This document shows positions 3,271 through 20,593 of a DNA stretch of 34,992 bases, piece after piece (positions within the stretch are counted from its first letter, which is position 1; each line of letters begins with the position of its first letter). Source of the stretch: Candidatus Woesearchaeota archaeon. GTDB taxonomy: Archaea; Nanobdellota; Nanobdellia; SCGC-AAA011-G17; JACPNG01. The stretch lies in contig JACQNI010000042.1 of the NCBI GenBank assembly GCA_016203135.1, forward strand, positions 1-34,992. The letters run 5' to 3'. The notes under the pieces are model-generated. The model had not been told where the DNA came from and searched no databases. It saw only the letters and a program-made list of their open reading frames with translations. Position numbers and translations under genes: made by a program.

Positions 3271-3306
3271 GAAAGGTTTAAATATATTTACATGGGGTTG
3301 GTTAAT

Positions 3307-3783
3307 ATGGACATTAAAAAGCTGGCAAAATATATAAGTATAGTGGCAATATTAGCAATGGTCTTATCTTTATATCTGACTTATTTACATTATTCTATTG
3401 AAGAAGGACCATGCAACATAAATGAGAATTTAAACTGCGATGTTGTAAATAAAAGCCAATGGAGCGAGATGTTTGGGGTTTCAATTTCTTTATTAGGATT
3501 TTTTGTCTTCCTTGTTGTTTTTACTATCAATATGTTTATAATAAGGGATAAAAAAGAGTTTATTGGTTTTGACCTGTCTAAGAAAAAATTGGCTACTTTT
3601 TTATTATTGATAAGCACATGGAATTTTTTATATTCAATTTATCTTCTTGGATATGTTTCTTATTATAAATTACAAGGGGTTTATTGCCCATTTTGTATAG
3701 TAGTTGACATATTAATTTTAGTAATGTTTATATTATCGATTATTATGTTTAAAGTGGTGGAAAATGGTGAAAAAAATACCTAA
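3307..3783 (+). CDS. VKOR-family membrane thiol oxidoreductase
   Basis: Four-helix membrane protein of the vitamin K epoxide reductase family, which passes electrons between quinone and extracytoplasmic thiol-disulfide partners to form disulfides. From the chosen start (158 residues), the loop cysteines are C36 and C44 (in NCDVVNKSQWS) and the active-site CPFC is C127/C130 at the start of a late membrane helix. An upstream ATG at 3292 is also in frame, but the TATA-like element at 3276-3285 lies 27 nt before 3307 and only 12 nt before 3292, which favours 3307. There is no fused thioredoxin domain, so it needs a separate Trx partner. This fits the many secreted cysteine proteins encoded from 8484 to 18022. 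Family assignment is strong. Confidence 0.9.
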   Translation: MDIKKLAKYISIVAILAMVLSLYLTYLHYSIEEGPCNINENLNCDVVNKSQWSEMFGVSISLLGFFVFLVVFTINMFIIRDKKEFIGFDLSKKKLATFLLLISTWNFLYSIYLLGYVSYYKLQGVYCPFCIVVDILILVMFILSIIMFKVVENGEKNT

Positions 3784-8483: not shown

Positions 8484-10712
8484 TTATAGCTTATAATTCT
8501 TCATCAACAAAGAATTGCTTACAACGCTTACAGAACTAAAAGCCATTGCTGCCGCGGCTATCATTGGATTTAACAAATATCCTGAAAATGGATATAGAAT
8601 TCCAGCTGCAATTGGGATTCCTAGGACATTATAGAAAAAAGCCCAGAACAAATTTTGCTTTATTTTTCTTAATGTATACTTGCTTAATTTTATTGACTTA
8701 ACAACATCTTTTATGTCATTTTTTACAAGAACTATGCTGCCAGCTTCTAATGCAACATCAGTTCCTGAGCCTATTGCGATTCCTAGATTTGCTTGTGCCA
8801 AGGCTGGGGCATCGTTTATGCCATCACCAACAAAGGCAACAATTCTTCCTTTTGCTTGTAATTTTTTAACTTCAATGGCTTTTTCATGAGGCAAAACATT
8901 AGCAAGAACTTTATTAATTCCAAGCTGTTTTGCAATTGCTTTTCCTGTTCTTTCGTTATCACCAGTTATCATTATGACTTCTTTTTTTAGTAGATGTAAT
9001 TGTTTTATTGCTTCTTTTGAGTTTTCTTTTATTGTGTCTGCAATCGCAATTATACCAACAATTTTTTTATTCACTGCAATTAAAATAGCTGTCTTACCTT
9101 CATCTTCGAATTTTATCAAATGATCTTCATACTTTAAAGTATTTATTTTATAGTCTTTCATTAATCTTCTGTTTCCATTCAAGATTGTTTTATTCCTAAA
9201 TTTAGCTTTTATTCCATGGCCAGGAATGTTTTCAAATTTAGTTGCATTTGGAATCTTTAACTTGAGTTTTTTAGTATAATTAACAATGGCTTCTGCCAAA
9301 GGATGTTCTGAATTTTTTTCTGCAACAGCTGAATAATATAAAACATCTTTTTCTTTAAAGCTGTTAAATGCCAAGACATTAGTTACTTCTGGCTTGCCTT
9401 TTGTTAGAGTTCCTGTTTTATCAAAAATAATTGTGTTGACTTTATGGGCTGTTTCTAGTGCTTCAGCATTTTTGATTAATATTCCAGATTCGGCACCTTT
9501 TCCTGTTCCAACCATTATTGCTGTTGGTGTTGCCAGGCCCATTGCACATGGACAGGCAATGATTAAGACTCCTACGAAATTTAACAATGCAAAATTAAAT
9601 GCTGGTTCTGGTCCTAAGAAATACCATGTTAAAAAGGTTAAAATTGATATTACAACAACAATAGGAACAAAAATACTTGCAATCTTATCAGCAAGTCTTT
9701 GTATTGGGGCTTTAGAGCCTTGAGCTTCTTCAACTAGCTTTATTATCTGAGAAAGCATTGTGTCTTTGCCAATTTTAGTTGCTTTTATTTTTAAAACCCC
9801 GTTTTTATTTATTGTTCCGCCAATCACAATGTCTTTTACTGTTTTTTCAACAGGAATGCTTTCTCCTGTTATCATTGACTCATCTATTGAAGAATATCCA
9901 GAAATAACAATGCCATCTGTAGGAATCTTTTCCCCTGGCTTTATTAATAAAACATCGTTAATCTTAACTTCTTCTATTGGAATTTTGAATTCTTTGTTAT
10001 TTCTAATTACTGTTGCGGTTTTAGCTTGAAGACCAATTAATTTTTTAATTGCTTGAGAGGTTCTTGATCTTGCTTTTGCTTCTAGATATCTTCCTAAGAT
10101 AATCAAAGTGATAATGACTGCAGCAGTGTCGAAGTAAACATCTGCTTTTAATGTTGTTCCTGTGAATAAACCAGGAAAGACAATTACAAATAAACTATAA
10201 ACGAATGCAGCATTAGTTCCTATGCTGACTAGAGAATTCATGTCAAAATTAAAATGCTTTAAATTATTCAAAGCTATTTTATGGAACATAAAACCAGCAT
10301 AGAACTGGACTGGAATTGTTAATAATAAAAGAATGATGAACATTGATTGCTTAGATATAAAATCCAAACCAACATAATCTTGATATGTGCCTATTAAAAT
10401 GAAGACTGATAATATTGCCCCAAGGAAGAATTTGTTTTTTAGGTCTTTGATCTCTTTTTCCTTTAGCATAGCTGCGTGATCATGATGTTCGAACTTTTCT
10501 GTTTGCAACATCACATCATAGCCAGATTTTTGGACTTCTTTTTTAACAAGATTGAAATCTAGATTTTCCTCATGCTCTATTGTGGCCTTTTCTGTTGCAA
10601 GATTTACATTAGCGGTTTTTACATTTTTAACTTTTTTTATTGCCTTTTCTACTGTAAGTACACAGCTTGCACAGTGCATACCCTTGACATTTAAGATAGA
10701 TTTATTTAACAT
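8484..10712 (-). CDS. copA: Copper-exporting P1B-type ATPase (CopA)
   Basis: Complete 742-residue Cu+ pump. One N-terminal heavy-metal-associated domain carries GMHCASC (C14, C17). The transmembrane metal site is CPC (C387, C389), the phosphorylation motif DKTGTLT begins at D431, the HP motif is in SEHPLAEAI, and the hinge [10 protein letters not shown] follows. The last two helices carry [11 protein letters not shown] and [12 protein letters not shown], the N/Y/MxxSS signature of Cu+ (P1B-1) pumps. It is the last gene of a minus-strand operon after SHOCT, DUF5676 and YHS genes; its start overlaps the YHS stop by 11 nt, which suggests translational coupling. The PadR-TRASH gene that diverges from this operon is the likely regulator. 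Confidence 0.96.
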
Positions 10713-10854
10713 ATTTTTCTGGATCTTTGTCGAATGTTTGCTTGCAGTTTAAGGCGCAGAAATAATATGTTTTGCCCTTGTAAACACTTTTATTTGGCAC
10801 ATCCTTGCTTACCTTCATGCCACATATTGGATCTATTACTTTGTTGAAAAACAT
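10702..10854 (-). CDS. YHS-domain metal-binding small protein
   Basis: 50-residue protein made almost entirely of a YHS domain. It starts [14 protein letters not shown] (C11), continues through [11 protein letters not shown] (C33 and C37, a C-x3-C pair) and ends with [13 protein letters not shown] domains bind copper or other soft metals and are common next to CopA pumps; it probably hands Cu+ to the pump or scavenges it in the cytosol. A Shine-Dalgarno-like GGGAGGA lies just before the ATG, inside the last codons of the preceding DUF5676 gene. The 3' end overlaps the copA start by 11 nt. It is easily missed because of its size. Confidence 0.88.
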
Positions 10855-10855
10855 T

Positions 10856-11137
10856 TTAATTTCCTCCCATTACTTTAATAAGTTTGTTGTATAATAAAGC
10901 GAATATTACCCCAACCAAATATGATATTATAAGAATAATGATTAATCCAATAATAACATTCCCTAGGTTTAATGACTTAATGGCTACTGACGTAAGGTCA
11001 ATGCTATGTTCTAGGTAATTGGCAAACCCTATAAGTGTTCTTGGTGATATCCAAGAGATTATTGCACAGATTATGTAAACTATTCCAGAAGTAATGCTTA
11101 ATGCTAAACCTGTTGCATTTACGTTTAATTTATCCAT
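10856..11137 (-). CDS. Small membrane protein, DUF5676-like
   Basis: 93 residues with two membrane helices (about 8-32 and 57-85). The N-terminus KLNVNATGLALSITSGIVY and the end IFALLYNKLIKVMGGN match the pattern of the DUF5676 small membrane family, which often sits beside copper ATPases and SHOCT proteins. It is the second gene of the operon: its start follows the SHOCT stop by one base, and its own last codons (MGG) form the ribosome binding site of the YHS gene. The molecular role is unknown; a part in membrane copper handling is inferred only from context. Confidence 0.75.
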   Translation of the reverse strand: MDKLNVNATGLALSITSGIVYIICAIISWISPRTLIGFANYLEHSIDLTSVAIKSLNLGNVIIGLIIILIISYLVGVIFALLYNKLIKVMGGN

Positions 11138-11138
11138 T

Positions 11139-11693
11139 TTACCTCATCAATTCTTTTTTCATCTCTAGATATTGCTTTCTACTAATTTCACCTTTAGCAT
11201 ATCTTTTTTCTAATATATCTAATGGTGACGATTCTTTGCCTTTAACAAATTGTTGTATAGCCCATACTATAAAGGCTATGATTGCTACCCAGAATATTAT
11301 CATCAATATCCAACCAAACACGCCAAAATTATAACCCATACCATAATTATAACCCATCATATTAAAACCTCCTCTGTTCATCATCATATTCATAGTGCTT
11401 GTCGAAATTGAATTTGCATTGCCGCAATAAAAATTTTTAGCTAGATTAATATGAACCTGCCGTAAGCTTTCTGAACCTTCTCCCCCCATTCTTTCATCCA
11501 TTATTTCATGTAATTTGCCAGGATGCATCTGTTCCATTATATAATCACCAATGGCTTCTAGCTGATCATCAGTTAATCTATCACATGAAGTTTTTTGAGC
11601 TATTAACTCTTTTCCTGTTTCAAGGTCATCAGCAAATGCAAGAGGCAATATTAACATAATTGCCAATAATGCTGATAATATTATCTTTTTCAT
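11139..11693 (-). CDS. Secreted/membrane SHOCT-domain protein with Met/His-rich region
   Basis: 184 residues. A signal peptide (1-21, ending LPLAFA) precedes an extracytoplasmic domain with two cysteines (C38, C89) and the stretch MHPGKLHEIMDERMGGEG, then a Met/Asn/Gly-rich segment (MMMNRGGFNMMGYNYG), one membrane helix (about 125-148) and a C-terminal cytosolic SHOCT helix pair (SPLDILEKRYAKGEISRKQY). Thioether-rich and histidine segments suit extracytoplasmic Cu+ binding. It is the first gene of the copA operon, directly downstream of the palindrome at 11706-11719, so it should be the most strongly controlled by the divergent regulator. The domain calls are good; the function is inferred. 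Confidence 0.8.
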   Translation of the reverse strand: MKKIILSALLAIMLILPLAFADDLETGKELIAQKTSCDRLTDDQLEAIGDYIMEQMHPGKLHEIMDERMGGEGSESLRQVHINLAKNFYCGNANSISTSTMNMMMNRGGFNMMGYNYGMGYNFGVFGWILMIIFWVAIIAFIVWAIQQFVKGKESSPLDILEKRYAKGEISRKQYLEMKKELMR

Positions 11694-11705
11694 ATTATAT
11701 CAGAA

Positions 11706-11719
11706 TTTGATATATCAAA
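11706..11719. promoter_or_regulatory. Perfect 14-bp palindrome, candidate operator of the copA operon
   Basis: The sequence tttgatatatcaaa is identical to its reverse complement. It lies between the divergent SHOCT/copA operon (start 11693) and the PadR-TRASH regulator (start 11753). An AT-rich TATA-like element (ctatataaag, 11722-11731) sits beside it and is about 27 nt from the regulator start and 32 nt from the SHOCT start. A dimeric PadR protein bound here would cover the transcription start region of the copA operon. Confidence 0.6.
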
Positions 11720-11752
11720 AACTATATAAAGTTTTCCATACTTGATAGAAAT

Positions 11753-12151
11753 ATGAAGGTTATAAACTTAGTCAAACTTTATACTTTGCTATTATTGAGC
11801 AAGAAACCGATGCATGGATATGAACTTATTAAGGAGCTTGAAGCGTGTTCTTTTCAAAAGATAAGTGCAAGTCATGTATATCCATTTTTGAAAACTTTAA
11901 AGCAAAACAAGCTAATAAAACTGAAAAATTCTGGAAAGAGGGACAAAAAACAATATGCCCTCACTAGAGACGGAGAAAAGTTCACTAAGGAGATGATGGA
12001 AAAATTTAATATTATGATAGATGCAGCCGTTCAGAAAAAGGTTAAGGAATGTGCTCATTGCAGATGCAAGGTTTATGAAGGCGGCTTTAAAAAGAAAATT
12101 GATGGCAAAGAAAAGTATTTCTGCTGTGTACATTGCGCAAAACATACATAA
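11753..12151 (+). CDS. PadR-type winged-helix regulator fused to a TRASH metal-sensing domain
   Basis: 132-residue one-component regulator. Residues 1-95 form a PadR-like winged helix (MHGYELIKELE recognition region, SHVYPFLKTLKQNKLI, wing KRDKKQYALT). Residues 96-132 form a TRASH-like treble-clef zinc/copper finger: C100-x2-C103, C105, then C124, C125, C128 and H131. In archaea, TRASH domains fused to other DNA-binding domains sense copper (CopR/CopT type); a PadR fusion is a different pairing. It is divergent from the copA operon with a perfect palindrome between them, which supports a metal-released repressor. The start is leaderless, about 27 nt from the TATA box. Confidence 0.88.
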   Translation: MKVINLVKLYTLLLLSKKPMHGYELIKELEACSFQKISASHVYPFLKTLKQNKLIKLKNSGKRDKKQYALTRDGEKFTKEMMEKFNIMIDAAVQKKVKECAHCRCKVYEGGFKKKIDGKEKYFCCVHCAKHT

Positions 12152-12155
12152 ATTG

Positions 12156-12611
12156 CTAAGCGAGCACTTGCCACTCAAATTTCCTTTCAGGGATATCTGG
12201 AATATCCTTTATTTTAATCATAATCTTTTTTGGAAGATTGTCTATCTTGAATGTGAGAATACCAGAGTTATGGTGCCCAGAAAGAGTTGGAGCTGACACT
12301 GGATTAACATATTTGCCGTTTAATTCTAAAGTTACTGATTTCTTAAGATCAAAAGGACTTAAGTCTATTGTATGAGTATTAACTCCGATATCCAAATAAA
12401 AATTATTACCATCAAACTCTTTTGGGGTTAAATCTATTGTAACAGAACTTGAGCTTGTTTTTGTTTCTAGATTCAGGCTTGAATGTTCTTTTATTGTATT
12501 TTGAGAATCTATTCCAAAATAAAACCTCTCAAGACCAACAAAGAGCAATGTTATAACTAAAAAAATAGTTATTGTTGCGATTATTGTTGTTTTTAATGTT
12601 TGTTTTTGCAT
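12156..12611 (-). CDS. Membrane-anchored secreted protein with NTHTIDL/SGHHNSG domain
   Basis: 151 residues. One N-terminal membrane anchor (about 9-27), then a beta-rich extracytoplasmic domain marked by NTHTIDL (78-84), an LxLNGKYVNP strand and SGHHNSG (111-117). I have a recollection of uncharacterised bacterial secreted proteins sharing the combination of N-T-H-x-x-D-L with a later GHHxSGxL; the paired histidines could bind metal. It is the last gene of the eight-gene cysteine-rich operon. The ribosome binding site GGAGGTT is formed by the last codons of the previous gene. No function can be assigned. Confidence 0.7.
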   Translation of the reverse strand: MQKQTLKTTIIATITIFLVITLLFVGLERFYFGIDSQNTIKEHSSLNLETKTSSSSVTIDLTPKEFDGNNFYLDIGVNTHTIDLSPFDLKKSVTLELNGKYVNPVSAPTLSGHHNSGILTFKIDNLPKKIMIKIKDIPDIPERKFEWQVLA

Positions 12612-12612
12612 C

Positions 12613-13122
12613 TTAACCTCCTACCAGTTTTCTTAATATTCCTTTATCTTTTCTGTATAAATTATGTTTTTGAATATTCCTCAATGTCCAACTTATGCCA
12701 ATGAAGTTTGAAAGTATACCTATAATTATGAAAAGTAATTGGTATTTATCAAGAAAAACTGCAAAAACACTTAAGCCCATTATTGGAAGGATATCTGAAA
12801 GGTGATGGGCACAACAAGCTACCATTGAACCAGTTGAAATGCCGCTTGAAGCCACTATATTTCCTGTTCCGATTTTATTTTTTATTTTAATGAACTCTTT
12901 TGTATAGACATATAAGGAAACTTGGAAGCCGAAACCAATGACTAACAGCGATATCCAGTACCACATTTTTACAAACTCTTCAATGAAATGCTGAAATGAA
13001 TTGGCTAATGTCAATATCAAGAAATATAACATAAACAAAGCAAAGCCTGCCAATACTCCAATCAGCAAGGGCTTTCTAACTAAATTTTTCTTATATGTTT
13101 TGCTATGAATCAAATCTTTCAT
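12613..13122 (-). CDS. Four-helix membrane protein with CCAHH motif
   Basis: 169 residues from ATG 13122, with four predicted membrane helices (about 20-42, 53-75, 92-122, 126-148). The motif ACCAHHLSD (C103, C104, H106, H107) lies in the third helix region and is followed by ILPIMGLS. Pairs of Cys and His inside a membrane suggest transition-metal binding or transport. A GTG at 13137 is also in frame, but the ATG begins 2 nt after the stop of the upstream 51-residue gene, which is the simpler arrangement. The gene ends in LVGG, whose codons supply the next ribosome binding site. I do not know a characterised homologue. Confidence 0.75.
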   Translation of the reverse strand: MKDLIHSKTYKKNLVRKPLLIGVLAGFALFMLYFLILTLANSFQHFIEEFVKMWYWISLLVIGFGFQVSLYVYTKEFIKIKNKIGTGNIVASSGISTGSMVACCAHHLSDILPIMGLSVFAVFLDKYQLLFIIIGILSNFIGISWTLRNIQKHNLYRKDKGILRKLVGG

Positions 13123-13124
13123 GT

Positions 13125-13280
13125 TTAATGGCAGCACCCATGTTTTTTTCTTGATCTTTCTATTTCTTTTTCATAATCATCTAAACATTTTTCAGAGCAA
13201 AACCACTTACTATGCTTTTCGATACCATCTTTCTCCTGTTTTTTTCCGCACACCGGATCTTTTTTCTTAATCCACATCAT
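13125..13280 (-). CDS. 51-residue TRASH/YHS-like zinc-finger protein
   Basis: Small cytosolic metal-binding protein. The finger has DPVCGKKQ (C11) and KWFCSEKCLDDYE (C28 and C32, C-x3-C), the TRASH/YHS pattern, and the C-terminus adds HGCCH (C49, C50). A GGAG-like ribosome binding site precedes the paired ATG codons. It sits in the middle of the cysteine-rich operon, immediately before the CCAHH membrane protein, and may deliver metal to it, much as the YHS protein precedes CopA in the neighbouring operon. It is too short for most gene finders. Sequence support is good; the role is inferred. Confidence 0.8.
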   Translation of the reverse strand: MMWIKKKDPVCGKKQEKDGIEKHSKWFCSEKCLDDYEKEIERSRKKHGCCH

Positions 13281-13281
13281 T

Positions 13282-13731
13282 TTACACTCTCCTGCAACAT
13301 TCTATAATTTTTTTTATGAGTAACTTTAGATTTTGATTTGAACGATAAAAATATAAAATAAAAAAGATTAGCCATACTGTAAATAACAAAATTATTGTTT
13401 TTATTATATCGTCTGGAGTGGTTAATGATAAATAACCAATTATGATTAATGTTAATATGAATGGCAATCTGAATATCTTCATTTCTTTATTTACTTTTTT
13501 TTCTACGAGATAAAAAACTCCGAGAATTGTTTGCCCCATAAGCAAAGCCAGGATAATTTTATCTTGAAATAAATCAAACCAATATAGGAATAACAAGGAA
13601 AGCCAGGTTAATGTTACTGACAAACAAATAACACAAAATTTTTCTTTAGACTTGTAAATGAATTCTTTTATAATAAGCAGCATGAAAAAAAGTACTATTA
13701 TAATGATTAATACATTAAAGATGCCTGTCAT
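13282..13731 (-). CDS. Multi-helix membrane protein with CVIC motif
   Basis: 149 residues with about four to five membrane helices and little else. A CxxC (C33, C36 in KFCVICLSV) lies at the start of the second helix, and a terminal CC pair (145-146) is cytosolic or membrane-adjacent. The helix-associated CxxC recalls quinone-linked thiol oxidoreductases, and the layout is loosely reminiscent of the VKOR fold, but the second cysteine pair and the serine loop of VKOR are not evident. The start overlaps the stop of the upstream gene by 4 nt. The function is unknown; thiol-disulfide or metal chemistry is suggested by the operon. Confidence 0.65.
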   Translation of the reverse strand: MTGIFNVLIIIIVLFFMLLIIKEFIYKSKEKFCVICLSVTLTWLSLLFLYWFDLFQDKIILALLMGQTILGVFYLVEKKVNKEMKIFRLPFILTLIIIGYLSLTTPDDIIKTIILLFTVWLIFFILYFYRSNQNLKLLIKKIIECCRRV

Positions 13732-14255
13732 GTTATTGCCTCAATTATTATGCTAGTCATTATTAGCAATGACAATGTTAGTGCTGTTGTTTGGAATGGA
13801 AGTGTTTTATTTTTTCTTAATCTGGTTATGAAATTGCTTAAATATGGGGATATAGAAACAATTATGGCGCCAATTAAACTTCCAGTAAGGAATGCATTTA
13901 TTAAGTATGTTCTGTTTAGTAATGAACCATAACTTCCTACAATAGAGATATAAGCTGGATAAAAACCCTCCATTACATTTAGCAAAGGAACTATTGTTGT
14001 TATGAATGACAAAAGTATGATTATGGTTTTTTGGAATGGGATATAGGTCTTTTTGATCATTCTAGAAATCCAGTATCCCATTGAAACTGCTAGAGCTCCG
14101 GTAAACAATCCTATTATTATTTGACTTACTCCAAGCCAGGCTGCTCCACCTGCAGCTGCTGCGATACCAACAGTACATAAAGGACAATGTGCAGACGCTT
14201 TATTGGCTAGTAAAAACAAAAAAAGCAGTACTGGAAATATTTTTTTGGAGCTCAC
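13728..14255 (-). CDS. Membrane protein with N-terminal HCPLC motif
   Basis: About 175 residues from a GTG at 14255. It begins SSKKIFPVLLFLFLL with a signal-like helix ending NKASA, immediately followed by HCPLC (C24, C27), which would be placed outside the membrane, and then four to five further helices. The frame stays open upstream to 14384, but that part overlaps the DUF411 gene. The GTG 4 nt after the DUF411 stop gives a clean signal sequence, so I chose it. CxxC beside His at a mature N-terminus suggests redox or metal binding. There is a tight operon arrangement on both sides. No family name is recognised. Confidence 0.7.
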   Translation of the reverse strand: MSSKKIFPVLLFLFLLANKASAHCPLCTVGIAAAAGGAAWLGVSQIIIGLFTGALAVSMGYWISRMIKKTYIPFQKTIIILLSFITTIVPLLNVMEGFYPAYISIVGSYGSLLNRTYLINAFLTGSLIGAIIVSISPYLSNFITRLRKNKTLPFQTTALTLSLLIMTSIIIEAIT

Positions 14256-14259
14256 GTTA

Positions 14260-14727
14260 CTAGAACTCCATAAATATTTCCTGATTACCATCTTTTTTGA
14301 CAGCAAAGATAGTAAACTTTTGAGTTTTTGCTCCTGGCATTCCTGGGGAACCAGAAGGCATTCCTGGCATTGCAATTCCAGCAATATCTGGCTTTTCTGT
14401 TAATAATTTATCAATTGCTTCAAGAGGAATATGACCTTCAATGAAATAATCTCCTATTATTGTTGTATGGCAACTTTCAAGGAATTCTGGAATCTTATAT
14501 TGCCTTTTTATTGAGCTTATATCAGCTACATTTATTACATTTACGTCGACTTTTCCCTTGCTTTTAAGGTAATTTGAATAGAGGTCGCAACATCCACAAC
14601 CTCCTGATGAATAGACTGTTATTTCATCATTTATATTTTTAATAGCGCTATTTGTTGAATTTTTAGTACAGCTTGTTATGATTAATAATGAAAGCAATAA
14701 AAAAAATAAAAAAAATTTCTTTTTCAC
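14260..14727 (-). CDS. DUF411 metal-binding lipoprotein-like protein
   Basis: 155 residues from GTG 14727. The N-terminus is a lipoprotein-like signal (KKKFFLFFLL to ITSC, C20). The DUF411 domain follows: VYSSGGCGCC (C44, C46, C47), a thioredoxin-like beta-alpha start, then ESCHTTIIGDYFIEGHIP (C86, H87), and IAMPGMPSGSPGM. DUF411 proteins are secreted and linked with copper (CopG-like). An ATG at 14742 is in frame, but it lies inside the previous gene; a GGAGGT 7 nt before the GTG supports 14727. It is the third gene of the operon. It most likely binds or delivers copper outside the membrane. Confidence 0.88.
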   Translation of the reverse strand: MKKKFFLFFLLLSLLIITSCTKNSTNSAIKNINDEITVYSSGGCGCCDLYSNYLKSKGKVDVNVINVADISSIKRQYKIPEFLESCHTTIIGDYFIEGHIPLEAIDKLLTEKPDIAGIAMPGMPSGSPGMPGAKTQKFTIFAVKKDGNQEIFMEF

Positions 14728-14728
14728 T

Positions 14729-14926
14729 TTAGCAACCTCCAACCATTGCTGGAGCTTGTTGTGTTTTAGGGCTTATAGTATTTTGAGCAGTAACTTTTGT
14801 ATAGCTGTTACTTATACTATCTTCATTGCCTAAAGAGTTTTTTATATCATTAATCTGATATGCTTGAACCCCAACAAGAGCTACTAAAGCTATTACCATT
14901 ATCAGTATAATTACTTGTTTTTCCAT
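14729..14926 (-). CDS. Small single-helix protein with C-terminal MVGGC
   Basis: 65 residues: one membrane helix or signal anchor (about 4-22), a polar Ser/Thr/Gln-rich segment, and the C-terminus PAMVGGC. The same five residues end the protein encoded just upstream. A GGAGGT 7 nt before the ATG lies inside the last codons of that upstream gene. The only cysteine is the last residue, so it could be a metal ligand or disulfide partner outside the cell, or the sequence may be kept mainly because the GGAGGT in its codons is the ribosome binding site for DUF411. No known family recognised. Confidence 0.7.
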   Translation of the reverse strand: MEKQVIILIMVIALVALVGVQAYQINDIKNSLGNEDSISNSYTKVTAQNTISPKTQQAPAMVGGC

Positions 14927-14927
14927 T

Positions 14928-15680
14928 TTAGCAACCTCCTACCATACCAGAACCTGCTGTTGCTCCTTGTTCGATGCCCCTATATCTATTGCTAGCTAGA
15001 TTTACATAGCTAAATTCTATGTTTTTTTCTTTAAGCACAGCAGCTTTACTGGTTAATTGTCCTGGAAAGAACAATGTCTTCCATTTTGCTAATTCTTCTA
15101 GTATCTCTTCATCGGTAAATTCATCATTATGTTCGGTAATCAGATACTTAGCTAGGCCTCTCATTGCATAAGAATGAGCACAACCACAAGCTGGATCGCC
15201 TGCATTTTGTCTATATTTTTCAGCTTGTTCTTTTGAAATAGCTCCAGAAGCAATAGCAGCTTCTATTTTTTTATCCATTGCATCTACATCTTCTTTTCTA
15301 ACTATGATAGATGAAGCTCCACAGCAATATTCACAGCTCATTTCTGAAGTGATATCAATGTATCTGTCTAGGTTTGCCCCTGTTAATGTTATTGTTTTGT
15401 CTAAATTGGCTAATACCTCAATTGTTTGGTCAGCTAATTCTGGATTGTTTGGGTTAATATCATCATAACTTATCCCAAGTTCTTTTCCATAGATCTTAGG
15501 GGTTCCTGTTGGGATTATAGATGCTTCAGCAAAAGCCACACCAGTTGGTATAATATTATTTCCTGATCTCATTGACATCAACTGGAATTGATTAAAAATA
15601 GATATTACTAAAGCCAAAATAAGAAATGTAATAACTATCTTATTATAGCTTAATAATTTTTCATTTTCGTTGTTTTTCAC
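14928..15680 (-). CDS. Secreted Cys-rich protein with CEYCCG and CGCAHS motifs
   Basis: 250 residues from GTG 15680, which has GGAGGT 8 nt upstream; an in-frame TTG at 15695 overlaps that site. A membrane anchor lies at about 14-30. The extracytoplasmic part has SEMSCEYCCGASS (C116, C119, C120), an acidic helical stretch, and DPACGCAHSYAMRG (C165, C167, H169) followed by KYLITEHNDEF, and it ends GSGMVGGC (C250). The CxxCC and CxC-x-H groupings are plausible soft-metal ligands; the pattern recalls the PCYCGC-motif proteins of bacteria, but I cannot claim homology. It is the first gene of the eight-gene operon and its main signature protein. Confidence 0.75.
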   Translation of the reverse strand: MKNNENEKLLSYNKIVITFLILALVISIFNQFQLMSMRSGNNIIPTGVAFAEASIIPTGTPKIYGKELGISYDDINPNNPELADQTIEVLANLDKTITLTGANLDRYIDITSEMSCEYCCGASSIIVRKEDVDAMDKKIEAAIASGAISKEQAEKYRQNAGDPACGCAHSYAMRGLAKYLITEHNDEFTDEEILEELAKWKTLFFPGQLTSKAAVLKEKNIEFSYVNLASNRYRGIEQGATAGSGMVGGC

Positions 15681-15743
15681 GGTTTTAACCTCCAAGTTAT
15701 CTAGGTTGAGAAATATACAACCAAATATAACTTACCCATGAAA

Positions 15744-15764
15744 CTGAACCTTGTTATTGTTCAG
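15744..15764. promoter_or_regulatory. Inverted repeat CTGAAC-N9-GTTCAG, candidate operator
   Basis: Two perfect 6-bp arms 9 nt apart lie between the eight-gene operon (start 15680) and the 3' end of the membrane regulator gene (15792). Further GAAC and GTTC half-sites occur at 15764-15767, 15780-15783 and 15790-15793. A TATA-like run near 15726-15733 stands between the repeat and the operon start. The site could serve the adjacent winged-helix regulator, but no binding rule for it is known. Confidence 0.35.
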
Positions 15765-15791
15765 AACTTAAGAAAACTCGTTCCAAATTGT

Positions 15792-16334
15792 TCAAAAAGG
15801 GTTTTTAAGGTAGATTTTGTTCTTTTTACCAGATGGAATCTTTCTAATTAGATTCTTTTTCTCTAATTCTGAAAGGATAACGCTTAATTTTGTCTTGCTT
15901 AGATCGGTTCTAATCCTTAGGGTTGCCTGTTCTATTCCATCTTGTTCCTTTACTGCGAGTATAACTTTTTTTTCATCTTCATTTAAAGCCTTTAAGAAAA
16001 ATTCAAATTTCTCATCTTTGTCTTGTTCTTTTTTTGTATCTTTTAGTGAATCTACAATCTCTCTATGAATCTTTTCTACTTTTTGTTCAACTTTTTCAAA
16101 GAGGATAAGATAAACTCCTAAGGCTAGAGTCATGAAAGTAAGGGCTACTCCAAGATATACAGGAAGGTTGCTTTGCTCATGCAGACATTTGCCTTCTACA
16201 ATACAACTACCCCCTGTTTCTATCATTAACTCTTCTGTAAGTTTATTTACTTGATATTTGAAAATTAATATAGAAACAATAAAAAAAATAGAAATTCCAA
16301 TTAAAATAAAGCCAAGCAATTTATTTTTAATCAT
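15792..16334 (-). CDS. Membrane-anchored winged-helix regulator with extracytoplasmic C-x5-C loop
   Basis: 180 residues. Two membrane helices (6-26 and 59-79) flank a short loop with C44 and C50 (GGSCIVEGKC). A charged linker leads to a C-terminal winged-helix domain (about 112-180: ATLRIRTDLSKTKLSVILSELEKK, then a basic wing near the end). This architecture allows a signal outside the membrane, plausibly metal or redox state at the two cysteines, to act directly on DNA-bound transcription. It lies between the two thiol/copper operons. The start is near a shared divergent promoter. Domain order is clear; the sensing role is inference. Confidence 0.8.
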   Translation of the reverse strand: MIKNKLLGFILIGISIFFIVSILIFKYQVNKLTEELMIETGGSCIVEGKCLHEQSNLPVYLGVALTFMTLALGVYLILFEKVEQKVEKIHREIVDSLKDTKKEQDKDEKFEFFLKALNEDEKKVILAVKEQDGIEQATLRIRTDLSKTKLSVILSELEKKNLIRKIPSGKKNKIYLKNPF

Positions 16335-16345
16335 ATATGCATATA

Positions 16346-16364
16346 TTTAAACAATATGTTTAAA
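16346..16364. promoter_or_regulatory. Inverted repeat TTTAAACA-N3-TGTTTAAA in a divergent promoter
   Basis: Perfect 8-bp arms (16346-16353 and 16357-16364) contain TATA-like TTTAAA on both strands, between the membrane regulator (start 16334) and the Gly/Met-rich membrane protein (start 16389). A second perfect palindrome, atatatgcatatat, lies at 16333-16346. The site is probably a two-way promoter and possibly an autoregulatory operator. Confidence 0.45.
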
Positions 16365-16388
16365 TACTTAATTATTTTACTGGAAAAA

Positions 16389-17123
16389 ATGGAGCATATA
16401 AACAAAGAAGATCAATGCGATGAATGCAATACAAGCACAGATTATAATATTTCTGATGTTTTATTAATATTTGAAAAATCGCTGATTAAAACAGCCATTT
16501 ATACTCTAATGTTTTTAACATTAATTGAGGTAATAAGCTATTATGGATTTTTTAGAAATGTTCCAGATTTCTTCTCGAGATATGGATATTACTTAATTTT
16601 TTTAATAATAAGCATTGTAATCAATTCAGTTGCTGTATGGCATGTTAAGGCTTATAGGCATAGTTTTTCTCATATGTCTGGAATGATGATTGGAATGACT
16701 ATTGGAATGAGCTCTGGATTTAGCGTCGGATTGATAATTGGGGCTACAAATGGAATGTTTATTGGAAGCTTGGCTGGCTTAATTATAGGAATGATTATTG
16801 GTGGATATGTTGGGAATTGCTGCGGGATAATGGGTGTTATGGAGGGGATGATGGCTGGATTGATGGGTGGAATAATGGGAGCTATGACTTCTGTGATGAC
16901 ATTGAATGATAACTTAAAGGCTTTTGTACCTATTTTAACAATAAGCATATCAATTATTATGTTTGGGCTGATTGTTATGATCTATCAAGAAGAAATCGCT
17001 AAGAAAAAAGACATAGATTATAAAGGATTTGATTTTTTGCCTTTCATAACAGTAAACTTTATAATCACTATAGCATTAACATTTTTAATGGTCTATGGAC
17101 CTAGATCATTTTTATTTGGCTAA
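16389..17123 (+). CDS. Gly/Met-rich multi-helix membrane protein
   Basis: 244 residues. A short cytosolic N-terminus has CDEC (C10, C13); about six membrane segments follow. The central part (roughly 95-170) is a run of short Gly/Met-rich helices with NCCGIMGVMEGMMAG and MGGIMGAMTSVM, matching an uncharacterised membrane family that I associate with cupredoxin-domain genes. Met and Cys in the membrane suit Cu+ binding. An ATG at 16356 is in frame but falls inside the promoter repeat; 16389 is about 27 nt after TATA-like tttaaata. The cupredoxin gene follows after one base. Function is unproven; a copper channel, sensor or store is possible. Confidence 0.75.
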   Translation: MEHINKEDQCDECNTSTDYNISDVLLIFEKSLIKTAIYTLMFLTLIEVISYYGFFRNVPDFFSRYGYYLIFLIISIVINSVAVWHVKAYRHSFSHMSGMMIGMTIGMSSGFSVGLIIGATNGMFIGSLAGLIIGMIIGGYVGNCCGIMGVMEGMMAGLMGGIMGAMTSVMTLNDNLKAFVPILTISISIIMFGLIVMIYQEEIAKKKDIDYKGFDFLPFITVNFIITIALTFLMVYGPRSFLFG

Positions 17124-17124
17124 A

Positions 17125-17535
17125 ATGAAAATAGAACTTGGGATAGGAAAATTACTTGGAATCTTTGGAGTAATACTGATAGCTATATTCTTGATATTTG
17201 CTGTAAAAAATTCCTTCTCTAAGGGAGATAATGTTAATGGAAGTATTGTAAATGACAATATTGTTAATGGAGAAGGGCAAGTTGTTGATTTAACTGTTAA
17301 GGATTATAATTATTATCCTAATACAATAAACTTAGCTTATAATGTTCCTGCAAAGATTGTTGTTGATACAGATAAAGTAAAAGGATGTTTTCAAAATATA
17401 GCAATACCAGAATTTAATATAAGAAAGTTAGTTAGACAAGGAGATAATGTAATAAGTTTTATTCCTAATAAAAAAGGAACTTTCAGCTTTTCTTGCTCTA
17501 TGGGCATGGGCTTTGGAAAAATAGTTGTAAGCTAA
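17125..17535 (+). CDS. Membrane-anchored cupredoxin-like protein
   Basis: 136 residues from ATG 17125, one base after the preceding stop. One membrane anchor (10-27), a linker, then a cupredoxin-like beta domain (about 52-136). Candidate copper ligands are C88 (KGCFQNIAIPEF), C124 and M126/M128 (FSCSMGMGFGKI). The pattern GCFxxIxIP plus CSMGMG is that of a cupredoxin subfamily in which cysteines replace the usual histidines. It acts outside the membrane and may pass copper to or from the Gly/Met-rich membrane protein encoded before it. The frame is open further upstream, but that part is inside the previous gene. Confidence 0.85.
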   Translation: MKIELGIGKLLGIFGVILIAIFLIFAVKNSFSKGDNVNGSIVNDNIVNGEGQVVDLTVKDYNYYPNTINLAYNVPAKIVVDTDKVKGCFQNIAIPEFNIRKLVRQGDNVISFIPNKKGTFSFSCSMGMGFGKIVVS

Positions 17536-17536
17536 A

Positions 17537-18022
17537 ATGAGAATTAAAAAGATTAAGAATTTATTGAAGTTAAAAAATTATTTTTTATTGGTTTTTCTTT
17601 CATCTTTATTTTATATAATCTTATCTGCTATATTAGTTTATTATTTTTTTAATGGGTTTTACTTGTTTTTTAATTATAGCTTAGGGTATTATCCTTGGAT
17701 TAACATAATATTTGCTTTAATTTTATCTGTTTTATTTGGATTAAACATAGGATTGCTTATATATCGATTTAATGAGGTTAAAAAATATACAAATGAATCA
17801 GGAACTGGAATATTCACTAGCATATTAGGCATATTTTCTGCTGGATGTCCAATATGTTCCTTGACGATAATTGGCTTTATTGTTCCTGGATTAAGTGCAG
17901 CTTACAGCCTAGCAATACTTCCTTTTAAGGGATTAGAGATACAGTTATTTGGAATTTTAGTTTTAATAATAAGCATATTAATTCTAACTAAGGATGAGGC
18001 ATGCGAAACACTTTTAAAGTAA
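17537..18022 (+). CDS. Membrane protein with SAGCPICS motif
   Basis: 161 residues, four membrane helices (about 15-38, 55-77, 95-120, 130-153). SAGCPICSLT (C104, C107) lies at the start of the third helix and is followed by a proline/glycine break (VPGLSAAYSL). Small membrane proteins with a GCPxC at this position are known next to redox and metal genes, but I cannot name a characterised family. It starts 1 nt after the cupredoxin stop, so it is probably co-translated. It may exchange electrons or metal with the cupredoxin. Mostly Phe/Leu/Ile-rich, as expected for a membrane protein. Confidence 0.7.
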   Translation: MRIKKIKNLLKLKNYFLLVFLSSLFYIILSAILVYYFFNGFYLFFNYSLGYYPWINIIFALILSVLFGLNIGLLIYRFNEVKKYTNESGTGIFTSILGIFSAGCPICSLTIIGFIVPGLSAAYSLAILPFKGLEIQLFGILVLIISILILTKDEACETLLK

Positions 18023-18029
18023 GACAATT

Positions 18030-18482
18030 ATGAAATTAAAAATGAGGGAAAGTTTTTATGCAGTTTCTTTTTGGAGAAGGCTAATTGCATACCTAGTTGA
18101 TTTAGTTGTGATAAACCTCGTTGTAGTCTTGCCATTTAATCTTCTATTCAAGGAAAAAATAGCGATCAATGACTTGGGCTTTTTGATAAACAGCAATCCT
18201 GAGAAATTATTTAGTATAGTCTTTACTGGAATAATAATAGCTATATTATCTGTTGCTTATTGGGCCTTGTTTGAGTATTTTTTGTCTCAAAGTCTGGGAA
18301 AGATGTTATTCGGAATAAAAGTAATATCCTTAAGGGGAAGCTTAAAGTTTTCGCAATGTTTATTAAGAAACATCACAAAATTTTCATCATTGCTTTTGCT
18401 TTTTGATTGCATTTATATGATAAATGGCAATGGCATGAGATATTTTGACAAACTAAGCAAGACAAAAGTTGTTGGAACATGA
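18030..18482 (+). CDS. RDD-family membrane protein
   Basis: 150 residues with the RDD signature: an N-terminal SFWRRLIAYLVDLVVINLVV segment with Arg and Asp in the first helix, a second helix near 62-84, SQSLGKMLFGIKVIS, and a final helix. RDD proteins are small membrane proteins of varied or unknown role; some act in Na+/H+ exchange. It begins 7 nt after the CPIC protein gene, and its stop overlaps the SppA start (ATGA), so it belongs to the same transcript. An alternative start at 18042 is possible. Confidence 0.85.
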   Translation: MKLKMRESFYAVSFWRRLIAYLVDLVVINLVVVLPFNLLFKEKIAINDLGFLINSNPEKLFSIVFTGIIIAILSVAYWALFEYFLSQSLGKMLFGIKVISLRGSLKFSQCLLRNITKFSSLLLLFDCIYMINGNGMRYFDKLSKTKVVGT

Positions 18483-19381
18483 CAAAGAAAATATTGATTG
18501 CGGTTTTAATTTTAATAGGACTATTTGTAGTCAGCTATGCATCTTCTAAATTGGTAAATATAAGCGATAATAGGGATAAGATAGCTGTAATACCAATAAC
18601 AGGGGTTATAACTATAGATGGAGGGGGAATTGGATTTGAAAGTCAAGGAGCTAGTTCAACTGATATAGTTCAATATATTCAAGAAGCAAATAAAAATTCA
18701 AATGTTAAAGGAATATTATTAGAGATAAATTCTCCTGGGGGGAGCGCTGTAGCAAGCAAGGAGATTGCAGATGCTGTTAAAAATTCTAAAAAGCCAGTTG
18801 TTTCTTGGATCAGAGAAGTTGGGGCTAGCGGGGCTTATTGGATTTCTAGTTCATCTAAGCTGATAGTTGCAGATCCTTTGTCTATAACTGGTAGCATAGG
18901 GGTTACTGGAAGCTATCTTGAATTTTCTGATCTATTTGAAAAATATGGGGTTACTTATGAAAGACTTGTTTCTGGAAAGTATAAAGATACTGGAAGCCCT
19001 TACAAGGAATTAAATGACGATGAAAAAAGATTATTGCAAGATAAAATAAACCAGATACATGAAGTTTTTGTTGATCAAGTTGCAGGAAATAGAAAATTAA
19101 ACAGGAATGAGGTTGAAAAATTAGCTACAGGAGAATTTTACCTTGGAAAGGAAGCTTATGATCTTGGATTAGTAGATTATCTTGGAGGCAAGGATCTAGC
19201 TTTAAATTTAACTAAACAGTTGGCTGGAATAAAAGAAGCTGAATTGATAAGATATGAGAAGAAAAGGGGAATTTTTGACATTGTTGGTGGATTAACTGCT
19301 AAGAATTTTTATTACATGGGAAAAGGAATTGGAAGCGAGATTAAGACAAGCAGTTATGAGATACCTGTAAGACTGGAATAA
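18479..19381 (+). CDS. sppA: Signal peptide peptidase SppA (S49 serine protease)
   Basis: 300-residue single-domain SppA that degrades cleaved signal peptides in the membrane. An N-terminal anchor lies at 4-22, VIPITGVIT starts the catalytic domain, and INSPGGSAVAS is at about 83-93. The nucleophile is S117 in GASGAYW, and the general-base lysine is in SGKYKD (K169 by spacing to the Bacillus-type enzyme, or K167). The end has the usual GEFYLGKEAYDLGLVD. The length matches bacterial and archaeal short SppA. It is the last gene of the plus-strand operon; overlap with the RDD gene implies coupling. It could also act on membrane proteins of the island. Confidence 0.95.
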   Translation: MTKKILIAVLILIGLFVVSYASSKLVNISDNRDKIAVIPITGVITIDGGGIGFESQGASSTDIVQYIQEANKNSNVKGILLEINSPGGSAVASKEIADAVKNSKKPVVSWIREVGASGAYWISSSSKLIVADPLSITGSIGVTGSYLEFSDLFEKYGVTYERLVSGKYKDTGSPYKELNDDEKRLLQDKINQIHEVFVDQVAGNRKLNRNEVEKLATGEFYLGKEAYDLGLVDYLGGKDLALNLTKQLAGIKEAELIRYEKKRGIFDIVGGLTAKNFYYMGKGIGSEIKTSSYEIPVRLE

Positions 19382-19515: not shown

Positions 19516-19992
19516 ATGAATCAATTACATCCTGGAGCACGATGGCAATTTCGTATTACCGGATATTTTTTGTTTGGAATTCCTGGATTCTTTTTAAGTC
19601 TATGGATAATTCCTTTTGCTATACTATTATTTAATTCATCAATTGCAGGAATTATTCTTATTTCATATATAGTCTTCGTTATTATCGCAAGCGAGATATA
19701 CGCTAGATTGTCTTACAATCGTTGGTTTTATGAATTTACAGACGAAGGATTAAGATTGGAAAGAGGAATAATCTGGAAGAGATATAGCAATGTTCCTTAT
19801 GAAAGAATACAAAATATCGATGTGTACAGGGGAATAATAGCTAGAATGTTTGGATTTTCTAGTGTTCTAATTCAAACAGCAGGATATTCTGGACAAATCA
19901 ATGCAGAAGGCTCTATTCCTGCTGTTGACATAAATCAAGCTGAAAAGATTAGAATATTTATAATGAAGAAAATTACAAACATGAGAAAATAA
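19516..19992 (+). CDS. Membrane protein with bacterial-type PH domain (first of tandem pair)
   Basis: 158 residues: starts NQLHPGARW, two membrane helices (about 15-35 and 42-62), then a PH-like beta domain (about 65-158) typical of YdbS/YdbT proteins, with TDEGLRLERGIIWKR, VPYERIQNIDVYRGI and FGFSSVLIQTAG. Such proteins are peripheral membrane scaffolds of unknown ligand. The TATA-like element 19484-19493 is 27 nt upstream, so the mRNA is probably leaderless. Its paralogue follows 1 nt after the stop, starting with the same first ten residues. Confidence 0.85.
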   Translation: MNQLHPGARWQFRITGYFLFGIPGFFLSLWIIPFAILLFNSSIAGIILISYIVFVIIASEIYARLSYNRWFYEFTDEGLRLERGIIWKRYSNVPYERIQNIDVYRGIIARMFGFSSVLIQTAGYSGQINAEGSIPAVDINQAEKIRIFIMKKITNMRK

Positions 19993-19993
19993 T

Positions 19994-20593
19994 ATGAATC
20001 AATTGCATCCCGGAGCAAGATGGATTTTTCGATTTAATTCTTATTCACGTTTTGGATTTATTTTTTTTATCTTAATTTATTTTTTGATAATTCCTTCTTT
20101 AATTACTAATCTGTATTTTTTTTCTTTAGTACCTGGCTTAGAAGATTTTGGGCTTAGGATATTTTTTGGAGATTCTGTATTAATTAGGTTAATCGAATTA
20201 TTAATCCCATTTATTTTTATTCTTATAATTGGCGAAATTTATGCTCGGATGGGATACAATAGATGGCTTTATGAAATTACTAACGATGGCATAAAAATTG
20301 AACATGGAATAATCTGGAAAAAATACACTTCTATACCTTATGAAAAAGTTCAGAATGTTGATATTAAACGGGGAATAATTGCTCGTATGATTGGCTTTTC
20401 AAGTGTGGAAATTGAAACTGCTGGACAATCTGGTTTTGGTGGAAGATATGAATTTAGATTCTGGGGAAGAGAACAGAGGCGATACCACAGTGAGGGTTAT
20501 TTACCCGCTATAGATGTCAATGGTGCAGAAAAAATTAGAGAATTTATAATGAAGAAGATTAAACAAACCCATAGAGGCGAACAAGGACTTTAA
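19994..20593 (+). CDS. Membrane protein with bacterial-type PH domain (second of tandem pair)
   Basis: 199 residues, paralogous to the preceding gene: it begins NQLHPGARW, carries two longer membrane helices (about 20-42 and 68-90) and the same PH-like core (TNDGIKIEHGIIWKKY, IPYEKVQNVDIKRGI, GFSSVEIETAG). It differs by an insertion of about 20 residues rich in Arg/Phe/Gly (GRYEFRFWGREQRR) before the last strand, and a longer membrane part. Probably formed by tandem duplication; both products could assemble as a hetero-oligomer, as proposed for YdbS and YdbT. Ligand unknown. Confidence 0.83.
   Translation: MNQLHPGARWIFRFNSYSRFGFIFFILIYFLIIPSLITNLYFFSLVPGLEDFGLRIFFGDSVLIRLIELLIPFIFILIIGEIYARMGYNRWLYEITNDGIKIEHGIIWKKYTSIPYEKVQNVDIKRGIIARMIGFSSVEIETAGQSGFGGRYEFRFWGREQRRYHSEGYLPAIDVNGAEKIREFIMKKIKQTHRGEQGL

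Follow-up and report, generated by a model that had tools for sequence, protein, structure and literature searches.

The locus at positions 8484-18022 of the DNA studied here, a 34,992-nucleotide contig (JACQNI010000042.1, assembly GCA_016203135.1; the whole stretch is referred to as the window) from a 912-kb, 93% complete genome of a tiny, uncultured Candidatus Woesearchaeota archaeon, raises the question of whether a dense group of genes for proteins with Cys and Met motifs is a single system and, if so, whether that system handles copper. An initial annotation had presented it as an undescribed copper/thiol envelope island of about 15 genes, complete for extracytoplasmic copper capture, relay and export and possibly supplied with disulfides by VKOR. 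Judged from sequence comparison, the island is a genuine unit that recurs in DPANN archaea, and it is probably (we estimate a probability of roughly 0.7) a copper-detoxification island of these archaea in which Cu(I) export is combined with an extracytoplasmic thiol/thioether relay. The kind of system, copper efflux with extracytoplasmic sequestration, is known and the parts list is largely new.

The region contains 17 genes, arranged in three tightly packed transcription units plus two regulator genes. The features are as follows.

8484-10712 (-): CopA, P1B-1 Cu(I)-exporting ATPase, 742 amino acids (TIGR01511, PDB 3j09, motifs)
10705-10854 (-): YHS-domain protein, 50 amino acids (PF04945; invariant Cys)
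10856-11137 (-): DUF5676 protein with two transmembrane segments, 93 amino acids (PF18926, 63 bits; C24 and H44 in 29/29)
11139-11693 (-): Met/His/Cys-rich protein, 184 amino acids, with one transmembrane segment and a C-terminal SHOCT domain (PF09851), probably extracytoplasmic
11706-11719: 14-bp palindrome TTTGATATATCAAA, candidate operator located where SHOCT and PadR diverge
11753-12151 (+): PadR-type regulator (PF03551) with a TRASH-like C-terminal tail (six conserved Cys)
12156-12611 (-): HHsec, transmembrane-anchored beta-sandwich protein, 151 amino acids (alignment; AlphaFold model)
12613-13137 (-): CCAHH, protein with several transmembrane segments and an MxxCCxH motif (alignment)
13125-13280 (-): YHS2, YHS-like mini-protein, 51 amino acids, C-terminal GCCH (family-invariant C11/C28/C32)
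13282-13731 (-): TM4, protein with several transmembrane segments, 149 amino acids, invariant C33xxC36 (CVIC; 24 homologues)
13728-14255 (-): HCPLC, signal-peptide-like N-terminus, H-C-x-x-C, then hydrophobic segments (alignment)
14260-14742 (-): DUF411/CopG-type protein, 160 amino acids (PF04214; PDB 6wis)
14729-14926 (-): GGC65, single-span membrane peptide, 65 amino acids, ending in MVGGC (87 homologues)
14928-15695 (-): CEYCCG, 255 amino acids, N-terminal transmembrane segment and helical domain, ending in MVGGC (83 homologues)
15792-16334 (-): membrane-anchored MarR-type regulator (PF24034, 41.4 bits)
16386-17123 (+): GlyMet, Gly/Met-rich membrane protein (16 homologues)
17125-17535 (+): transmembrane-anchored CupA-like cupredoxin (PF13473; PDB 2mry/4f2e)
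17537-18022 (+): GCPIC, protein with several transmembrane segments, invariant C104xxC107 (29 homologues, both Cys 100%)

The first of two minus-strand units, unit 1, reads SHOCT, DUF5676, YHS and CopA, with the PadR-type gene divergent from SHOCT. Unit 2, also on the minus strand, holds eight genes in the order CEYCCG, GGC65, DUF411, HCPLC, TM4, YHS2, CCAHH and HHsec, separated by gaps of at most 4 nucleotides or joined by small overlaps and preceded by the MarR-type gene. The plus strand carries unit 3, made up of GlyMet, cupredoxin and GCPIC. CCAHH is listed from a GTG start, an ATG at codon 6 being likewise conceivable, and the longer listed open reading frame start of HCPLC is probably unused. 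The three operons with at least two regulators of the initial annotation thus correspond to the three units and the PadR-type and MarR-type genes, and each motif it had named was found in place; the gene count was low, the 51-residue YHS2 (13125-13280) not having been separately placed. The claim that nearly every product carries Cys or Met motifs stood for the motifs, with HHsec lacking Cys, and did not extend to total Cys, which at 17.1 per 1000 residues was not higher than in the flanks (16.3); Met was 31.6 per 1000 in the island and 20.8 in the flanks. A CxnC motif (n = 0-3) was found in 11/17 island proteins and 6/25 flanking proteins (Fisher p = 0.012), indicating that the enrichment is not due to chance. 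Conservation across whole families is much stronger evidence: in alignments of 8-93 homologues each, the Cys, His and Met residues were 75-100% conserved.

Among metals copper is the best supported, being borne out by CopA, the CopG-type protein, the CupA-like cupredoxin, the TRASH-like regulator and CsoR-family regulators of relatives. By sequence, CopA, the CopG-type DUF411 protein, the cupredoxin and YHS are copper families. CopA scored 628.6 bits with TIGR01511 (cut-off 397) and has the HMA motif GMHCASC at residue 11, CPC at 387, N..YN at 687 and MxxSSxxVxxN at 723, its nearest solved relative being CopA 3j09 (E 9.7e-212). The DUF411 protein (PF04214, 87.7 bits, cut-off 27) aligned over its length to CopG (PDB 6wis, E 3.7e-20), with retention of CGCC, SCHT, the GH of EGH and the Met residues of MPGMPSGSPGM, which are conserved in 42 homologues. 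CopG proteins are reviewed as thioredoxin-like with a tetranuclear copper site, and as having ties both to copA and to copper resistance under anaerobic conditions (PMC7558416). The cupredoxin, with one N-terminal hydrophobic segment by eye, found good solved relatives only in pneumococcal CupA (2mry/4f2e, E 4.6e-10) and a related E1-E2 ATPase domain. The residues that bind Cu(I) in CupA, C74, C111, M113 and M115 (PMC5646241), correspond in the alignment to its C88, C124, M126 and M128. The YHS protein at 10705-10854 scored 63.4 bits with PF04945 (cut-off 30.3); YHS2 had no Pfam match at 1e-3 and has the C11, C28 and C32 invariant in its family. Two bacterial-labelled copies of a CEYCCG-HCPLC-DUF411-CCAHH-HHsec cassette, in loci L174 and L176, carry a PF02583 (CsoR/RcnR-type) regulator, that of L174 showing C-H-C spacing by eye.

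Whether the genes belong together was evaluated with profiles of the window proteins, which were run against two sets of loci: 40 that surround CEYCCG homologues of the same phylum and, from GTDB genomes, 80 named loci, many on short contigs. The sets (120 loci) partly share genomes. Island families were found in 7-39/40 and 5-80/80 loci, with a CopA homologue in 39/80, while the flanking RDD, SppA, GNAT, ELP3 and RelA genes were found in 0/40 and 0/80. The gene order membrane MarR, CEYCCG, GGC65, DUF411, HCPLC, TM4, CCAHH and HHsec is kept in one locus (L103), where YHS2 is missing, and with small departures in many others. At the genome level, CEYCCG was present in 66/237 genomes of the phylum and accompanied HCPLC in 41/44 genomes with that gene (Fisher p 5e-25), HHsec in 37/39 (p 9e-23) and DUF411 in 36/39 (p 6e-21), the co-occurring genes lying mostly within 10 kb of each other. 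At the CEYCCG locus, the nearest relatives with a name are for the most part Candidatus Woesearchaeota, at approximately 60% identity. The island genes do recur together elsewhere, and the locus recurrence and genome-level p values exclude the possibility that they do not co-occur outside the window. The same scan removed VKOR from the system: the gene (3292-3783) sits 4.7 kb outside the island and a homologue was found in 0/40 and 1/80 loci. It follows a calcium-type P-type ATPase gene, the pair spanning 655-3783 (+) and lying outside the island.

The cassettes in bacterial-labelled genomes, L174 (Nealsonbacteria) and L176 (an unnamed bacterium, where the cassette with its PF02583 repressor lies among genes that look bacterial by eye), suggest transfer between DPANN archaea and bacteria of the candidate phyla radiation type. 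A further CEYCCG gene at a contig end labelled Bacteroidetes (L107) may reflect faulty assembly or binning. No plasmid homologues of CCAHH, HCPLC or CEYCCG were found.

Eight families of the core (CEYCCG, GGC65, HCPLC, TM4, CCAHH, HHsec, GCPIC and GlyMet) had no Pfam or NCBIfam match above the curated cut-off, and the literature search found nothing relevant on the island or on MVGGC, so that the label undescribed stands for the core families. PDB sequence searches with CEYCCG, HHsec and CCAHH likewise gave no convincing match. In HCPLC, H23, C24 and C27 were 100% conserved in 71 homologues and follow a hydrophobic N-terminus ending in AxA/VxA (Ala at -1 in 68/69; V/A/I/S at -3 in 67/69), the pattern seen at signal peptidase I sites; cleavage at this point would give a mature protein that begins with His23 and presents a metal-binding His-Cys. 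HHsec has invariant TH and GHH motifs, and its AlphaFold model is a beta-sandwich with a mean predicted local distance difference test score (pLDDT) of 90.8, for which the fold search returned generic beta-sandwich matches only (E 0.03 or worse). M105, C108, C109 and H111 are invariant in CCAHH, and C33 and C36 of TM4 are 100% conserved in 24 homologues. The SHOCT protein conserves C37, M53, M56, H57, H62, M65, M69, H81, C90 and M101. GlyMet has family-invariant GMMxGMTIGM and CCGxM within Gly-rich helices, and is followed by the cupredoxin gene in 12 loci.

Each of the two regulators has conserved Cys residues. C100, C103, C105, C124, C125 and C128 of the PadR tail are 95-100% conserved, and the divergent PadR/SHOCT pair recurs in 10 loci. 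The intervening palindrome, TTTGATATATCAAA, is perfect over its 14 bp and is the sole exact copy in the window; with up to two mismatches its frequency in the window was not above chance. The MarR-type protein has two transmembrane segments by eye, a loop containing C44 and C50 (84% and 83% conserved in 93 homologues) and a winged helix, and in 34 loci its gene lies upstream of CEYCCG in the same orientation. An inverted repeat, CTGAAC-N9-GTTCAG, was also noted upstream of CEYCCG (15696-15791); it is weak (z -1.9) and a possible MarR-type operator.

The CEYCCG protein is distinguished by C121, C124, C125, C170, C172 and H174 (CxxCC...CxCxH), invariant in 83/83 homologues, and by a C-terminal MVGGC in 73/83. 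AlphaFold models it confidently as a helical domain (mean pLDDT 90.6), for which there was no match among PDB folds (best E 1.3), and for none of the 83 members did the matches at E 0.1 include PF13798 (PCYCGC). The MVGGC end, which the initial annotation had not mentioned, is shared with the neighbouring GGC65, where M61-C65 are 95-99% conserved in 87 homologues. When the 237 genomes were scanned for MVGGC directly before a stop codon, 148 sites were found in 64 genomes, compared with 2 for the reversed control pattern; all 64 are among the 66 with CEYCCG (p 3e-56), and 145/148 sites have a CEYCCG gene no more than 1.5 kb away. The sequence GGAGGT is a Shine-Dalgarno sequence and could encode the Gly-Gly pair; it was present in only 22/148 sites, with 15 of the 16 synonymous codon pairs in use. 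An embedded Shine-Dalgarno for the next gene was thereby ruled out, and the freedom of the synonymous sites indicates that selection acts on the peptide. A genome-wide sorting tag was also ruled out, there being 2 sites in the archaeon's own genome and 145/148 adjoining CEYCCG. The small MVGGC peptides were bare (45), or carried a WxxxEKMxYExHG-like segment (30) or MMxRMHPxQ (12), and CC precedes the transmembrane segment in 14/87. Some lineages have CEYCCG without MVGGC with the tail retained on the small peptide, and QVGSC is a rare variant. The tails may be flexible Met/Cys arms.

A third CEYCCG-like form (CDYCCGS, approximately 400 amino acids) lacks its own MVGGC and is followed by an MVGGC peptide gene. 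The genes of this form are:

L043, 15007-16245
L052, 352-1560
L068, 16481-17470
L069, 9989-11311
L112, 3-800

The CEYCCG genes occur in two genomic contexts. By C-terminal sequence motif, 129 distinct genes were sorted into a copper type (82), a type B (24) and an unassigned remainder (23). Neighbors of the copper type are the membrane MarR (82%), HCPLC (78%), DUF411 (46%), CCAHH (38%) and CopA (37%); thioredoxin genes (9%), CcdA genes (13%) and multicopper oxidase genes (4%) are seldom nearby. Type B genes lie beside tandem thioredoxins in 21/24 (88%) and CcdA in 20/24 (83%), always with an MVGGC peptide. The copper type is one clade (support 100/98) that includes the closest relatives of the window protein; the tree holds only five type-B rows and does not resolve them into a single group. 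The two contexts indicate that the CEYCCG/MVGGC pair is a portable thiol unit, and suggest that on the surface of archaeal cells copper is directly linked with thiol redox, which would parallel bacterial Scs. A more specific proposal, which we hold tentatively and at slightly under an even chance, is that CEYCCG and the MVGGC peptide form an extracytoplasmic carrier pair of a new kind found DPANN-wide, in which two distinct membrane-anchored proteins share one five-residue Met/Cys arm at the C-terminus, a portable Cu(I)/thiol shuttle used both in copper export and in CcdA/thioredoxin reduction.

The type-B context also gives the strongest competing explanation, a Scs-like extracytoplasmic thiol-redox system against copper damage, in which CEYCCG and MVGGC would be dithiol/disulfide shuttles keeping exported proteins reduced and copper binding would be incidental. 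Flexible C-terminal arms are known in some reductases. Besides the thioredoxin and CcdA neighbors of the type-B pair, DsbA-like and rhodanese genes recur in related loci, and ScsC joins disulfide exchange to Cu(I) binding of sub-picomolar affinity (PMC8900818) and to copper tolerance, contributing to copper resistance (PMC5524982). Nonetheless this explanation is unlikely for the island, as the copper-type clade has few thioredoxin or CcdA neighbors and is enriched in HCPLC, DUF411, CopA and CCAHH, and as the window island itself contains neither a thioredoxin nor a CcdA gene. Delivery of copper to an extracytoplasmic cuproenzyme, such as a NosZ-like protein or nitrite reductase, in place of detoxification would be in line with CuA-bearing NosZ-like proteins reported in DPANN genomes (PMC10936187) and with multicopper oxidases encoded at a small number of related loci (L038, L039, L070). 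It is improbable, since the multicopper oxidase (Cu-oxidase_3, PF07732) and COX2 families had no match in the host genome, a result making efflux or sequestration likelier than cuproenzyme assembly, since multicopper oxidase genes are near just 4% of copper-type CEYCCG genes, and since CopA with metal-type regulators is an efflux pattern. General resistance to silver, mercury or gold, with copper not the physiological substrate, is hardly credible: P1B-1 ATPases and Cys/Met sites are generally known to bind Ag(I) as well, and thiol-rich proteins Hg(II), but CopG and the CupA-like cupredoxin are copper-linked in the literature (PMC7558416, PMC5646241), two relatives have CsoR-family regulators, and a mercuric reductase or lyase gene is not among the window open reading frames.

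Copper detoxification by export and an external relay would operate as follows. It is established for these families that YHS and HMA sites bind Cu(I) inside the cell and that CopA pumps copper out. The YHS and HMA domains of the island would accordingly bind cytoplasmic Cu(I) for export by CopA. Outside, the SHOCT protein, DUF411, HCPLC with its predicted free N-terminal His-Cys, HHsec and CEYCCG would hold and pass on exported or incoming Cu(I), and the MVGGC arms of CEYCCG and GGC65 may carry Cu(I) between sites or keep the CEYCCG thiols reduced. CCAHH, TM4, GCPIC and GlyMet would supply intramembrane Cys, His and Met sites. The PadR protein with its TRASH-like tail may be the cytoplasmic copper sensor for the CopA unit, and the membrane MarR-type protein may read the outside metal or thiol state via C44/C50 and control the CEYCCG unit. 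We infer the relay itself, its direction and order, the topology, copper as substrate of the new families, the signals of the regulators and the completeness claimed in the initial annotation.

Several results weigh against this scheme. The CEYCCG/MVGGC pair also occurs without most of the copper genes, beside tandem thioredoxins and CcdA, so that the pair may basically serve thiol redox and copper be one of its uses. CopA lies within 6.5 kb of just 37% of the copper-type CEYCCG genes, a figure depressed by contig ends. The PadR tail is below the Pfam TRASH cut-off (PF24273, 18.4 bits; cut-off 27). Pneumococcal CupA works at the cytoplasmic side (PMC5646241), so that the cupredoxin here may lie on either side. 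Lastly, with the host genome 93% complete, the absence of cuproenzymes is provisional.

Four characterized counterparts come closest to the island. Bacterial CopA/CopG clusters (copA-linked copG, Rhodobacter cutFOG) likewise join a P1B-1 CopA and DUF411/CopG in a metal-regulated cluster, whereas the island is without CusCBA or multicopper oxidase, has eight extra families of membrane or anchored proteins that neither Pfam nor NCBIfam lists, and belongs to an archaeon with a single membrane. Pneumococcal copY-cupA-copA shares with it CopA and a membrane-anchored cupredoxin with the four CupA Cu(I) ligands; in the island, however, regulators of the PadR/TRASH-like and membrane MarR types take the place of CopY, and the cupredoxin is in a separate unit with the Gly/Met-rich membrane protein. 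The relatives of CEYCCG/MVGGC adjoin CcdA (DsbD-like) and thioredoxins, as in Scs, but these genes are absent from the window island and the CEYCCG model has no thioredoxin-fold match. PCYCGC proteins (PF13798) are also exported Cys-cluster proteins, sometimes of the same loci as CEYCCG, which differs in having no PF13798 match, another cysteine order and the MVGGC tail. The multicopper oxidase expected of Pco/Cue-type copper resistance had no match (PF07732) in the host genome.

Extracytoplasmic copper handling in archaea is poorly known, and most exported DPANN proteins are without assigned function. Here about six unnamed families, several with invariant Cys/His/Met sites, are linked to copper proteins by where their genes lie, which makes their function testable with small soluble domains. 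MVGGC, a short C-terminal sequence common to two neighboring protein types, phylum-wide and nearly exclusive to them, is an unusual case of a probable functional arm.

Additional features were noted. A small protein with EEH...EGEVWCISKHLLGASMRL and a C-terminal CC (L046, 10661-11182, -) is absent from the window; it has homologues in 16/40 loci and is near 52% of copper-type CEYCCG genes. Genes for an RDD protein and an SppA-type S49 peptidase (18030-19381, +) begin 7 nucleotides after GCPIC and may be co-transcribed with it; they are not recurrent in related loci. Two adjacent related genes (19516-20593, +) share the N-terminus MNQLHPGARW, the second having a bPH_2 domain, and look like a tandem duplication. 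A Cys-rich protein of 564 amino acids (27621-29315, +) contains two somatomedin-B domains (PF01033, E 6e-10), unusual in an archaeon.

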